A stretch of 50,272 nt of DNA, taken from assembly GCA_004292595.1 (NCBI GenBank), contig RDXM01000099.1:1-50272 (forward strand), written 5' to 3'. The DNA comes from Candidatus Kapaibacterium sp. (GTDB lineage Bacteria; Bacteroidota; Ignavibacteria; Kapaibacteriales; UBA4661). A program made the position numbers and the translations under genes. Of this stretch, positions 7,941-48,535 are shown piece after piece; positions within the stretch are counted from its first letter, which is position 1; the number at the start of each line of letters is the position of its first letter. The notes beneath the pieces are model-generated. The model saw only the letters and a list, made by a program, of their open reading frames with translations. It was not told the DNA's origin and made no database searches.

Positions 7941-8020
7941 TAGTGGCACAGACATTCTTGTCTGTGTTCGTCGCCTGAAGACCGCACCAACACTCACAGA
8001 CAAGAATGTCTGTGCCACTA
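7941..8020. repeat. Family A palindromic repeat, copy 1 (double hairpin)
   Basis: Two 26-base arms, each beginning or ending in TAGTGGCACAGAC, are perfect reverse complements separated by about 28 bases. Each arm is itself a hairpin (CAGAC, six bases, GTCTG). Copies with the same layout occur at 23539, 26288 and 26827, and a related single hairpin at 28153. Confidence 0.9.
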
Positions 8021-8083
8021 TTGAAAAGAGTTTGCTGTGATACTGAATAATCAAATTTTCCCAATGATGTTGCTTCAGAGACT

Positions 8084-14840: not shown

Positions 14841-14989
14841 CCATGCCGAAAGGGACGCAGATGAAGATGATTGGATTGATAAAGATGATAGCACGAAAGT
14901 GCATCCACTCCTGATATTTTCTGCTCTTTCATCATCTTCATCCATTCAATCATCTTCATCTGCGTCCAAAAAAATCTTTGACCAGTTAC
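14833..14989. mobile_element. Family C MITE-like element, copy 1
   Basis: The core is two inverted arms reading GGACGCAGATGAAGATGAT ... ATCATCTTCATCTGCGTCC. The right end is TTTGACCAGTTAC, matching the terminal sequence of the other copies. The left end (GTACCTAACCATGCC) is more diverged. It has no coding capacity. It overlaps the stop codon of the glycosyltransferase and lies just before tgt. No target duplication was found. Confidence 0.75.
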
Positions 14990-20348: not shown

Positions 20349-20504
20349 AGCTGATTAGGTCGTGATTTTTTGGACGCAGATGAAGATGATTTGATTGATG
20401 AAGATGATACGTGAACGTTTGATGTGTTCTGCTCTTTCATCATTTTCATCCATGCAATCATCTTCATCTGCGTCCCACTTGATTGTTGAGACTTGAGCAG
20501 TTAC
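20349..20504. mobile_element. Family C MITE-like element, copy 2
   Basis: Inverted arms TGGACGCAGATGAAGATGAT and ATCATCTTCATCTGCGTCC enclose a variable middle. The ends AGCTGATTAGGTC (left) and GAGCAGTTAC (right) are diverged forms of the terminal repeat. The 10-mer AAATAACCAT flanks both sides (20339-20348 and 20505-20514), which may be a target-site duplication. It is non-coding and sits between the upstream side of the cyclophilin gene and the end of the GNAT gene. Confidence 0.75.
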
Positions 20505-23538: not shown

Positions 23539-23617
23539 TAGTGGCACAGACATTCTTGTCTGTGAGTATTGGTGCGAGGTTCAAGTAAAAAACACAGACA
23601 AGAATGTCTGTGCCACT
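23539..23617. repeat. Family A palindromic repeat, copy 2 (double hairpin)
   Basis: Arms of 25-26 bases start with TAGTGGCACAGAC and end with the complement. The spacer contains TTGGTGCGAGGTTCA, also found in copy 3. It lies between the S41 protease and the IgGFc-binding protein gene. Confidence 0.9.
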
Positions 23618-23669
23618 GAAACCTGATTCTACGCGCCCCAAATAGTTTGTATGGTGCTGAGAAATAGAT

Positions 23670-26287: not shown

Positions 26288-26365
26288 TAGTGGCACAGAC
26301 ATTCTTGTCTGTGAGTGTTGGTGCGAGGTTCAGGAGATAACACAGACAAGAATGTCTGTGCCACT
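26288..26365. repeat. Family A palindromic repeat, copy 3 (double hairpin)
   Basis: This copy has the same arms as copy 2, and its spacer GTGTTGGTGCGAGGTTCAGG is nearly identical. It lies just upstream of the IgGFc-binding-like gene, beyond the CHMI gene end. Confidence 0.9.
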
Positions 26366-26412
26366 GAAGCCTGATTTTTGAAGTTTGCTGAAGTTTTGTA
26401 GGATATTCAAAC

Positions 26413-26826: not shown

Positions 26827-26898
26827 AGTGGCACAGACCTTTCTGTCTGTGAATGTGTAGTGTTGGCGGAGAACACAGGCAAGAATGCCTGTGCCACT
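26827..26898. repeat. Family A palindromic repeat, copy 4 with compensatory changes
   Basis: The left arm has CAGAC ... GTCTG with an altered loop. The right arm reads CAGGC AAGAAT GCCTG, so both sides of its own hairpin have changed from AC/GT to GC/GC together. Pairing within each arm is kept while pairing between arms is reduced. It lies between dnaN and the CHMI gene. Confidence 0.88.
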
Positions 26899-28152: not shown

Positions 28153-28180
28153 GTAGCGCAGACAGGAGTGTCTGCGCTAC
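28153..28180. repeat. Family A-related single hairpin
   Basis: A perfect 11-bp stem GTAGCGCAGAC / GTCTGCGCTAC has the loop AGGAGT. The CAGAC-6-GTCTG core equals the core of family A arms, while the outer stem (GTAGCG/CGCTAC) differs on both sides. It lies upstream of psd and near the divergent dnaN start. Confidence 0.85.
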
Positions 28181-34084: not shown

Positions 34085-34493
34085 CATGGGTATTCTGTTT
34101 CTAAGCAAGTCTCTTGCTGTCTATGCTTTTGATATGTTGTACGGCATCCACACGGTACTTTGACCTAAAACGAAAATGTGCTGGACACTACGCAATCATT
34201 CATTCTCTCGTTTCTCTCATTTTTGAGAGAGCTTTGTGAGAGTGTATCTCCAATGTGCCAATTTTAGCGAAATAAAGATGTTTTTATTTTTGGTACAATT
34301 TTTGATTGGGTACTTAATTCATAACATCTGTGAAACGAGAGGAAATGTACGGTAAGGTTCTGTTGAATATTTTTCAACAATGACTTTTTTATGCGAAAAA
34401 CGCTATTTTTAGATTCATTTTCTTTGATAATATTTGCACAATTAAGTAAGTTTGTAGGTTATCATTGCCATACAAAAAAGAATATTGTTGTTT

Positions 34494-41156: not shown

Positions 41157-41188
41157 GTATTACTATACTGAAAAAGGTTTGTTGCTTC

Positions 41189-41221
41189 AGATGTAGTCCA
41201 CCTCAAAGGTGGACTACATCT
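41189..41221. repeat. Family B hairpin repeat, copy 3 (perfect stem)
   Basis: AGATGTAGTCCACCT and its exact complement flank the loop CAA. The flank GTTGCTTC on the left and CTCAAT on the right also occur, in inverted orientation, around copy 4 at 48.4 kb, so the element is longer than the hairpin. It lies between the giant gene and the IS607-type element. Confidence 0.9.
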
Positions 41222-41335
41222 CAATGCCTTCACTTTTCGATATGCAATTCTTAACCTTTTTTAGTATCAAATAACTTCAATGATTTCATAGACAATTATA
41301 GTCGTAAATAGGCAAATAAGTCGTATGTTTGCCGA

Positions 41336-41911
41336 ATGAAACTCTCAGAATATGCAAAACGCCATTCGATTTCGTACCGCACCGCACACCGCCATTGGAA
41401 GCAAGGTTTTATCAAGGGTACACAACTTGCAAGCGGAACGATTGTGGTCGAAGAAGAATCTTCACCCGTTGTTAGAACCAAGCAACGAGCCGTATTGTAC
41501 GCCCGCGTTTCGTCATCGGAAAACAAAGCCAACGTCGAAACACAGCTTGAACGCTTGCGTGGCTATGCCTCAGCCAAAGGCTACACAATCGTCCGCGAGG
41601 TGAAAGAAATAGGAAGCGGTTTGAACGATAAACGTCCGTTATTAGAAAAAATCTTGCTCTGGGACGCTTGGGATATTGTGCTTGTCGAACACAAAGACCG
41701 TTTGGCGCGGTTTGGCGTAAATTATCTTGATGTGCTGCTGGAAAAACAAGGCAAACGCATTGAAATTATCAACAACGTTCAAGACAACAAAGATGATTTG
41801 ATGCAAGATTTTGTCGCCATCATCACGAGTTTTACAGCGCGTCTCTACGGTTTGCGCCGCTCTGAGCGCAAGACCGAAGCCATCATTAAAGAACTTCACG
41901 AGAACGAATGA
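41336..41911 (+). CDS. IS607-type serine recombinase TnpA
   Basis: This 191-residue enzyme excises and inserts the element. The N-terminal MerR-like helix-turn-helix (MKLSEYAKRHSISYRTAHRH) binds element ends. The catalytic domain begins RAVLYARVSSSENKANVET, with nucleophile Ser59 by comparison with the RVS motif of resolvases. The conserved Arg pair lies in VEHKDRLARFG. It ends with an IIKEL helix. Its stop overlaps the tnpB start in ATGA (41908-41911), the usual coupled arrangement in this family. Confidence 0.93.
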   Translation: MKLSEYAKRHSISYRTAHRHWKQGFIKGTQLASGTIVVEEESSPVVRTKQRAVLYARVSSSENKANVETQLERLRGYASAKGYTIVREVKEIGSGLNDKRPLLEKILLWDAWDIVLVEHKDRLARFGVNYLDVLLEKQGKRIEIINNVQDNKDDLMQDFVAIITSFTARLYGLRRSERKTEAIIKELHENE

Positions 41912-43131
41912 GACTTGTAGAACGTCATATCATTACCAAAAACCACCGACTTTTTGCCGAGTGCGACCGCGTGTGCTTTGCCGCAAAAAACCTCTACAAC
42001 CTTGCTAATTACACGATTCGCCAACATTTTTTTGCGACCAGTACCGTGCTTGGCTACAACGCATTGGACAAACTCATGCAGCCAAACGATGCCTACCGTG
42101 CTTTGCCGTCAAAAGTCTCTCAGCAAGTCTTGATGCAGCTTTGCCGTAATTGGAAAGCGCATTTTGCCGCTATGCGTGAGTACGGCAAGCATCCCGAGCG
42201 CTTTCAAGGCAAGCCAAAACTTCCACGCTACAAGGACAAAGAGCAAGGGCGATTTCTCGCGCTCTACACGGTACAAGCCGTTTCCAAACCTCATCTTCGC
42301 AATGGCATCGTGCGCTTGTCCATGACGACGATTGATGTACCAACCAAGCAGCGCGATATTCAGCAAGTCCGCATCAGCCCCCAACTTGACCACTATGTTA
42401 TTGAAATTGTGTACGAACAAGCCCCCAAGCCCTACGACCTTGAAAAGACCGCCGACAAAAGCAAGATAGCAAGTGTAGATATTGGCATTGGAACGCTTGC
42501 GGCTGTAACTTCCAATCAAGCCGGATTCCCTCCGCTCTTGATAAACGGCAGACCGCTTAAATCCATGAACGCCTACTACAACAAGCAAAAAGCAGTATTG
42601 CAATCACGAATGGGCGGCGAAAAGCAGACTTCGCGCCGTATTCGCAAGCTGACGCACAAACGAAACTGCAAAGTGGACAATTACCTGCATCATGCAAGTA
42701 GTGTCATTATCAAAGAACTGCTCAAACACCGCATCGGTACACTGGTCATCGGTAAAAACCCGCATTGGAAGCAAGAGGTCAATCTTGGTAAGCGCACCAA
42801 TCAAGCCTTTGTGAATATTCCTCATGCGCGATTTATTGACCAACTGCGCTACAAAGCAGCATTGGTCGGCATTACCGTTATTTTGACCGAAGAAAGCTAC
42901 ACCTCAAAATGCTCGTTTTTGGACAATGAGGCTTGCACCAAACACGAAACCTATATGGGCAAACGCAAGCATCGGGGCTTGTTCGTGGCTTCGGATGGTC
43001 GCCAAATCAATGCCGATATTAACGGAGCGGCAAATATTCTCCGAAAAGTATTCCCAAACGCTTTCGCCGATGGGATACAGGGCGTTGTAGTTCGCCCAGT
43101 ACGCCTTACACCGTACAAAGTAGCAGCTTGA
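41908..43131 (+). CDS. TnpB RNA-guided nuclease with rearranged RuvC site
   Basis: This 407-residue TnpB protein belongs to the family ancestral to Cas12 nucleases, which cleaves DNA guided by an RNA from the element end. RuvC-I Asp is D191 in SVDIGIGTLAAV. RuvC-III Asp is D370 in INADINGA. The region where a catalytic Glu is usual (VIEDLN-like) reads TLVIGKNPHWKQ, with Gly in place of Glu. A Glu pair instead occurs in VILTEESYTSKCSFL (about 328-329), a likely substitute position, as reported for rearranged TnpB groups. The zinc ribbon is reduced (TSKCSFLDNEAC, with no second CxxC). The N-terminal helical part is complete. Activity is plausible but not certain. Confidence 0.92.
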   Translation: MRLVERHIITKNHRLFAECDRVCFAAKNLYNLANYTIRQHFFATSTVLGYNALDKLMQPNDAYRALPSKVSQQVLMQLCRNWKAHFAAMREYGKHPERFQGKPKLPRYKDKEQGRFLALYTVQAVSKPHLRNGIVRLSMTTIDVPTKQRDIQQVRISPQLDHYVIEIVYEQAPKPYDLEKTADKSKIASVDIGIGTLAAVTSNQAGFPPLLINGRPLKSMNAYYNKQKAVLQSRMGGEKQTSRRIRKLTHKRNCKVDNYLHHASSVIIKELLKHRIGTLVIGKNPHWKQEVNLGKRTNQAFVNIPHARFIDQLRYKAALVGITVILTEESYTSKCSFLDNEACTKHETYMGKRKHRGLFVASDGRQINADINGAANILRKVFPNAFADGIQGVVVRPVRLTPYKVAA

Positions 43132-47504: not shown

Positions 47505-47699
47505 GTAACTGGTCAGGTCTCAAGCATGAAGAGGGGACACAGATGAAGATGATTGGATGGATGAAGATGATATTGATAAAAAAATAGGAGCGTGAATGCA
47601 GACTTTATCCGTTGTTGATATGTTCTGCATTTTCATCATCTTCATCCATTCCATCATCTTCATCTGCGTCCAAAAAAAAATCATGACCTGACCAGTTAT
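47505..47699. mobile_element. Family C MITE-like element, copy 3 (best preserved)
   Basis: This element is about 195 bases. TAACTGGTCAGGTC at 47506-47519 and its exact complement at 47685-47698 form 14-bp terminal inverted repeats. Inside lie arms ACAGATGAAGATGATTGGAT and ATCATCTTCATCTGCGTCC. The 8-mer GATTTTCT occurs directly outside both ends (47497-47504 and 47700-47707), a likely target-site duplication. It is non-coding. Its right end supplies the stop codon (TAA, read on the minus strand at 47696-47698) of the SUI1/YciH gene. Confidence 0.85.
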
Positions 47700-48309: not shown

Positions 48310-48390
48310 ACTCAAAAAATATGGTGAAAAATATGGTGAAAAATATACTAAAAATGAGTAAAAATTGCATACCGAAAAGTAAAGGAATTG

Positions 48391-48423
48391 AGATGTAGTC
48401 CACCTTCAAGGTGGACTACATCT
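48391..48423. repeat. Family B hairpin repeat, copy 4 (perfect stem)
   Basis: AGATGTAGTCCACCT and its exact complement flank TCA. Right flank GAAGCAAC equals the inverted left flank of copy 3 at 41.2 kb, so the two copies are inserted in opposite orientation. Confidence 0.9.
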
Positions 48424-48535
48424 GAAGCAACAATGAAAACTCCATGAGTTTGCAGTAGTAAGCAAAGCGCAAAATTAGAAGATTTCAAGAGAGCGAACAA
48501 AGAAAATCTCTTTTTTCATAGATGTTCCTTCACAA

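Follow-up and report, generated by a model that had tools for sequence, protein, structure and literature searches.

Five intergenic loci in the window (the whole stretch of 50,272 nt analysed here) carry hairpins of the form GTRG-CACAGAC-N6-GTCTGTG, and these hairpins, pointed out in a sequence-only reading, are real. Searching the window by pattern, we found exact CAGAC-N6-GTCTG at 7949, 7997, 23547, 23595, 26296, 26343, 26834 and 28159, and CAGGC-N6-GCCTG at 26876. As that reading had it, four loci are inverted doublets (7943-8018, 23541-23616, 26290-26364 and 26828-26897, with arms 22-28 nt apart), the copy at 28153 is a single hairpin (palindrome 28153-28180), and four of the five loci cluster, within 23.54-28.18 kb. 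The double change that it described in the right arm of the 26828 doublet is also there, giving the stem CACAGGC/GCCTGTG. The features are as follows.

7943-7966, plus strand: REP arm with head GTGG and stem CACAGAC/GTCTGTG (pattern search)
7967-7994, no strand: doublet linker of 28 nt, the minus strand of which reads AGTGTTGGTGCGG... (sequence)
7995-8018, minus strand: second REP arm, inverted (pattern search)
8031-8047, minus strand: remnant of a 17-bp IS4-MITE TIR, 5 mismatches, at the expected 29 nt (TIR search)
23541-23564, plus strand: REP arm (pattern search)
23593-23616, minus strand: second REP arm, inverted (pattern search)
23645-23661, minus strand: IS4-MITE TIR, 2 mismatches, at the expected 45 nt (TIR search)
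26290-26313, plus strand: REP arm (pattern search)
26341-26364, minus strand: second REP arm, inverted (pattern search)
26394-26410, minus strand: IS4-MITE TIR remnant, 5 mismatches (TIR search)
26828-26851, plus strand: REP arm with loop CTTTCT (pattern search)
26874-26897, minus strand: REP arm with compensated stem CACAGGC/GCCTGTG (pattern search)
28153-28180, no strand: single palindrome GTAGCGCAGACAGGAGTGTCTGCGCTAC, a GTAG-headed variant, upstream of dnaN (sequence)

An arm consists of GTGG, CACAGAC, 6 nt and GTCTGTG. The GTGG or GTAG head lies outside the arm's own stem and, in doublets, has the other arm's head as its one possible partner; in the palindrome at 28153, GTAG pairs with its own CTAC. 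This copy is of the GTAGCGCAGAC/GTCTGCG variant, which has 15 matches genome-wide. A loose pattern (2 mismatches allowed) was not enriched in the window (20 found vs 14.9 expected), and the TIR search found no terminal repeat around the 26828 doublet. In a sister species (G005), the site of the 23541 doublet holds a doublet with one degenerate arm, the 26290 doublet is absent from the same site, and the gap of the 28153 palindrome contains a full GTGG doublet. Most window sites have no clean empty counterpart in G005, the gaps being occupied by other repeats.

Other repeats and elements share the window. A second family, also dispersed, has inverted arms of 37 nt (GGACGCAGATGAAGATGATT...) and lies at 14853-14967, 20372-20475 and 47535-47671, and a third hairpin family (AGATGTAGTCCACCT/AGGTGGACTACATCT) at 41186-41224 and 48388-48426, as well as near 34461 and in another stretch (L129). 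At 41336-43131, a Resolvase gene (PF00239) adjoins TnpB as an IS607-like element. T9SS sorting domains are present in the window's proteins, pointing to Bacteroidota or a close relative.

Throughout the 4.6-Mb genome (G000), the pattern GTGGCACAGACN{4,8}GTCTGTG has 431 matches (223 + 208) and the reversed-pattern control 0, on which ground chance was rejected as the source of the hairpins. Exact-stem matches occur in five of 61 genomes of the order, all of one genus (431, 382, 121, 70 and 31), and number 0 in the other 56; a sixth genus member (G002) has one match, in the GTAG-headed form. Doublet statistics were taken from about 1.04 Mb of G000 (about 22%) and 0.47 Mb of G005 read as stretches, and the assemblies are fragmented drafts. 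The preferred linker is 28 nt (29 of 49 doublets), and both single arms and doublets lacking TIRs are common. Doublets of a head-to-head subtype (CCAC...GTGG inside) join a GGC/GCC arm to a GAC/GTC arm (L046 12776-12849, L049 19-92, L128 7245-7318 and others). Some arm loops hold a second small hairpin, CTGAGGGCTTCCCTCAG or near (L045 1193, L061 9664 and L124 2680, all on the minus strand). Form, copy number and the partner gene described below agree with tail-to-tail REP doublets (BIME/REPIN), and by sequence criteria the hairpins are REP units with a GTGG or GTAG head and a 7-bp stem, mostly in that arrangement.

Known REP/BIME and REPIN systems with RAYT (Nunvar 2010, PMC2817692; Bertels and Rainey 2011, PMC3116915) are similar in the GT(A/G)G head, the hairpin, the size of the inverted doublets, copy numbers in the hundreds, complementary changes in the stems and a RAYT between inverted REPs. 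The present case differs in that many doublets are cargo of IS4-type MITEs and that the RAYT is inserted in frame into recG. GTAG-tagged palindromes (PMC3733652) have the same head class, and the excerpted text of that paper lists GTAG repeats for Proteobacteria, Cyanobacteria, Chloroflexi and PVC, not for Bacteroidetes/Chlorobi.

The covarying stem pairs expected from the sequence-only reading were found. Among 48 distinct arms, both-side stem changes made up 24 cells vs 6.0 in shuffles, and 94.0% vs 87.5% of cells were paired, with the counts being of non-independent events (members of a subfamily share descent, and a full palindrome is counted once on each strand). Both-side changes fell at five of the seven stem pairs in these arms, and sliding the partner destroyed the signal. 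When G000 copies were collected by sequence, with four stem mismatches allowed and pairing not required, both-side changes were far above independence at pairs 1, 2, 4 and 6. The compensated pairs are of at least seven different types. The claim that each arm is maintained as its own hairpin held as well: in 15 doublets with unlike arms, 206 of 210 cells were Watson-Crick within the arm vs 180 of 210 between arms. Hence, the arm is the unit; a plain two-arm inverted repeat without arm structure was rejected. For a doublet with like arms, the more stable fold is one long hairpin, and both folds have been described for REP doublets, with compensatory changes called common (PMC3116915).

Templated correction within the palindrome, in which one hairpin strand serves as the template for the other, could be the main source of the paired changes in place of selection on protein recognition; we give this a substantial, if minority, chance. 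Correction, too, would switch several independent pair types, and the outer TIRs of the MITEs described below are matched within elements more than between elements. However, the unpaired GTRG head is conserved too, and the G-T intermediates that are seen are equally expected under stepwise change. RAYT recognition, templated correction of the palindrome, or both would keep up the hairpins.

A Pfam search found two Y1_Tnp genes in G000. The first is an IS200-type TnpA truncated by a contig end; the second, a RAYT, lies within a 950-aa open frame that is otherwise RecG. This RAYT, the only one in the genome, is flanked by the same hairpins as those in the window, as had been suggested for a search: a pair of direct arms lies upstream and a single inverted arm downstream, and the arms are read through as VAQTFLSV and SQTRMSVP. 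It forms an unbroken in-frame insert between helicase motifs II and III, bounded by DEQHRFGV and MSATPIPRTL. The arrangement is identical in G006 and G007, and in three species the RAYT flanks are the same hairpins, without TIRs; RAYT is present in three of the six REP-bearing members of the genus. The corresponding recG loops are short or empty in G001, G002, G003, G004 and G009. In G005 (L086), a different in-frame palindromic insert (SLIPTLLPEGEG...PSPSGRGLGEG) takes the place of the RAYT, which was not detected in that genome despite its 382 GTGG copies; a 10-nt match in the G005 recG loop hints that a RAYT may have been lost there.

The RAYT scores 78.9 bits against NCBIfam REP_Tyr_transpos (cut-off 80) and is over the cut-off for Pfam Y1_Tnp. 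Its match among PDB sequences is 4er8 TnpArep (E=5e-14), and its predicted model (pLDDT 92) has as top fold match the same 4er8, a REP transposase bound to a REP hairpin (TM 0.77/0.68). The HUH motif and a catalytic Tyr in Y-x-x-N-P context are present; across 29 sequences H55, Y117 and N121 are invariant and H57 and P122 nearly invariant. Searching genome contigs with the RAYT as query returned two distant relatives only. recG is single copy, the second search match being a 41%-identical protein of ~1,180 aa, probably Mfd. The ratio of nonsynonymous to synonymous changes in the RAYT part is 0.40-0.42 in the RecG frame vs 0.85-1.71 in shifted frames, and 0.07-0.17 in RecG. Hence, the RAYT is under purifying selection, though its rate of evolution is higher than that of RecG. 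In a tree, the three RAYTs from recG form one group with weak support (88/67), and judging from these comparisons a single old insertion in recG followed by losses is likely.

We consider it unlikely that RecG and RAYT form a single protein, made and acting together as a fork-remodelling helicase with a hairpin-cutting transposase domain. Such a protein, if it exists, would bring REP processing to stalled forks. A model of the fusion, built from nine sequences, reached pLDDT 50 and supports no claim about the fused structure. We found no precedent for a RAYT in frame in recG in the literature searched. The excerpted text of PMC3733652 describes in-frame REPs within DNA repair genes; there REPs lie inside host genes, whereas here a whole RAYT reading frame lies inside recG. 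The RPE palindromic elements of Rickettsia (cited in the same excerpt) are alike in inserting in frame into working genes; as presented there, they have neither a RAYT nor a GTRG head and are an unrelated family.

Conservation of the doublets extends past the arms into their flanks. In the two sister species, at least 31 of 71 oriented doublets (44%) have, on one side or both, a TIR with up to 5 mismatches in the expected place, vs 2 of 213 shifted-position controls; three of the window doublets have such TIR remnants. These 17-bp TIRs have sequences near CTTTGTACACGACAAAA or CTCAGTACCATACAAAA. Two ends were found for 16 MITE copies, 14 of which measure 148-153 bp (~151 bp), with most at 150-153 bp, and nine of the 16 are flanked by 9-bp duplications (at least 7/9 matches; for example ATATCCTTC and ACTATTTGC) vs 0.8% in the control. 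An autonomous IS4-family element of 1,179 bp with the same TIRs (CTTTGTACACGACAAAA) occurs in G005 (L222 1324-2502 / L248), where it is inserted into a REP arm and flanked by a perfect 9-bp duplication, GGTACAGAC; its transposase scores 203 bits against the NCBIfam IS4 cut-off of 152. The G000 stretches read contain no complete IS4 element with these TIRs; at contig ends in G000 (L044 and L228), a TIR is joined to a C-terminal transposase fragment, and a further TIR lies near a contig end (L061).

One site is cleanly filled in one species and empty in the other: in G005, GAGATTCTC and GAAGTTCTC enclose a 150-bp unit, and G000 has a single GAGATTCTC. As read from this alignment, the site shows that the whole TIR-bounded unit moved. 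The outgroups G002, G004 and G006 align outside the insertion point only, and the polarity was taken from G002 and G004 being without, or nearly without, the hairpin family. In more than half of the doublets sampled, no type-1 TIR is recognisable; some have other outer inverted repeats, the doublet core being common to several such types, and others, that at 26828 among them, have none. Since a TIR is recognisable in 31 of 71 only, the doublet as such is not classed as a MITE.

TIRs with target duplications are characteristic of DDE transposases, not of the Y1 type. No target duplications are known from Y1 transposases of the IS200/IS605 type, nor would RAYT transposition be expected to produce them. 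Hence, an IS4-type transposase probably spread the TIR-bounded copies. The sequence-only reading had the hairpins mobilised by RAYT proteins; a RAYT flanked by the same hairpins does exist, but as the mover it is not supported, given TIR MITEs in at least 31 of 71 doublets and many 9-bp duplications. We consider it probable that the REP doublets were amplified largely as cargo of IS4-type MITEs and that the REP core is RAYT-derived. Much of the recent spread is best accounted for by an IS4-type transposase that would act in trans on doublet-bearing MITEs, copying TIR-bounded units and with them the REP doublets they contain. Recognition of hairpins by RAYT would be the origin of the REP core. 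The RAYT, now retained within RecG as an in-frame domain, may still be able to bind or cut these hairpins on single-stranded DNA.

That the doublets are classical REPINs, moved by RAYT in trans via single-stranded hairpins and landed in MITEs secondarily, seems unlikely to us, although the RAYT flanks, its fold and intact HUH/Tyr residues, the presence of one doublet core within several different outer inverted repeats, and the confinement of REPs to a genus in which half of the REP-bearing members have RAYT all agree with it. Against it stand the TIRs at expected distances with 9-bp duplications, the whole TIR unit carried at the clean filled/empty site, and G005, rich in GTGG copies with no detectable RAYT. 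It is very improbable that the hairpins are merely interior MITE stem-loops with an incidental REP likeness and RAYT link: many copies do lie within TIR-bounded units, but in three species these hairpins flank the RAYT with no TIRs around them, TIR-less singles and doublets are common, and REPs are matched in both copy number and GTRG head. That the hairpins are transcription terminators or structured RNA elements, as the intergenic position of the five window loci and the great stability of the hairpins might suggest, was rejected as very unlikely, because no T-run follows the arms, divergent and same-direction gaps are occupied alike, an Rfam search of the window gave one tRNA and nothing else, and the sister species differ in presence at the same gaps.

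IS4-family ISs, their MITEs and REP-targeting ISs (PMC1525189) are alike in TIRs, 9-bp duplications and, in G005, an IS4 copy in a REP arm; here the MITE core is a REP doublet, so IS movement multiplies REPs, a combination that we did not find in the literature searched. Each part is already known; new, within that literature, are the REP doublet in a MITE and the RAYT in frame in recG. REP multiplication is still debated because RAYT-driven movement is hard to show. Here, the duplications and an empty site make a DDE-type element visible as a vehicle, and two sources of REP spread are separable within one genus. The RAYT housed in recG, under purifying selection and present in three species, is a testable case of a transposase inside a repair enzyme.

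Searching 391 genomes of the class, we found further RAYTs in long open frames; in those read, the RAYT is in frame within a DUF1156 protein or an ORF of the Eco57I methylase type, and repeated peptides often lie on either side. These RAYTs belong to other RAYT clades; hence, nesting arose more than once, and the in-frame position of RAYTs within restriction enzymes of other families suggests that the recG case is not a single accident. If RecG and RAYT do work as one protein, these would be further cases of a general nesting in DNA-handling enzymes. Eco57I restriction-modification-type ORFs with a RAYT in frame, often between REP-like peptides, were seen in L163, L164, L165, L166, L167, L168, L169 and L171 (hosts checked by Pfam for L163, L168 and L171, the others by eye), and DUF1156 proteins of two families with a RAYT in frame at L161 2264-4843 and L170 1438-5301.
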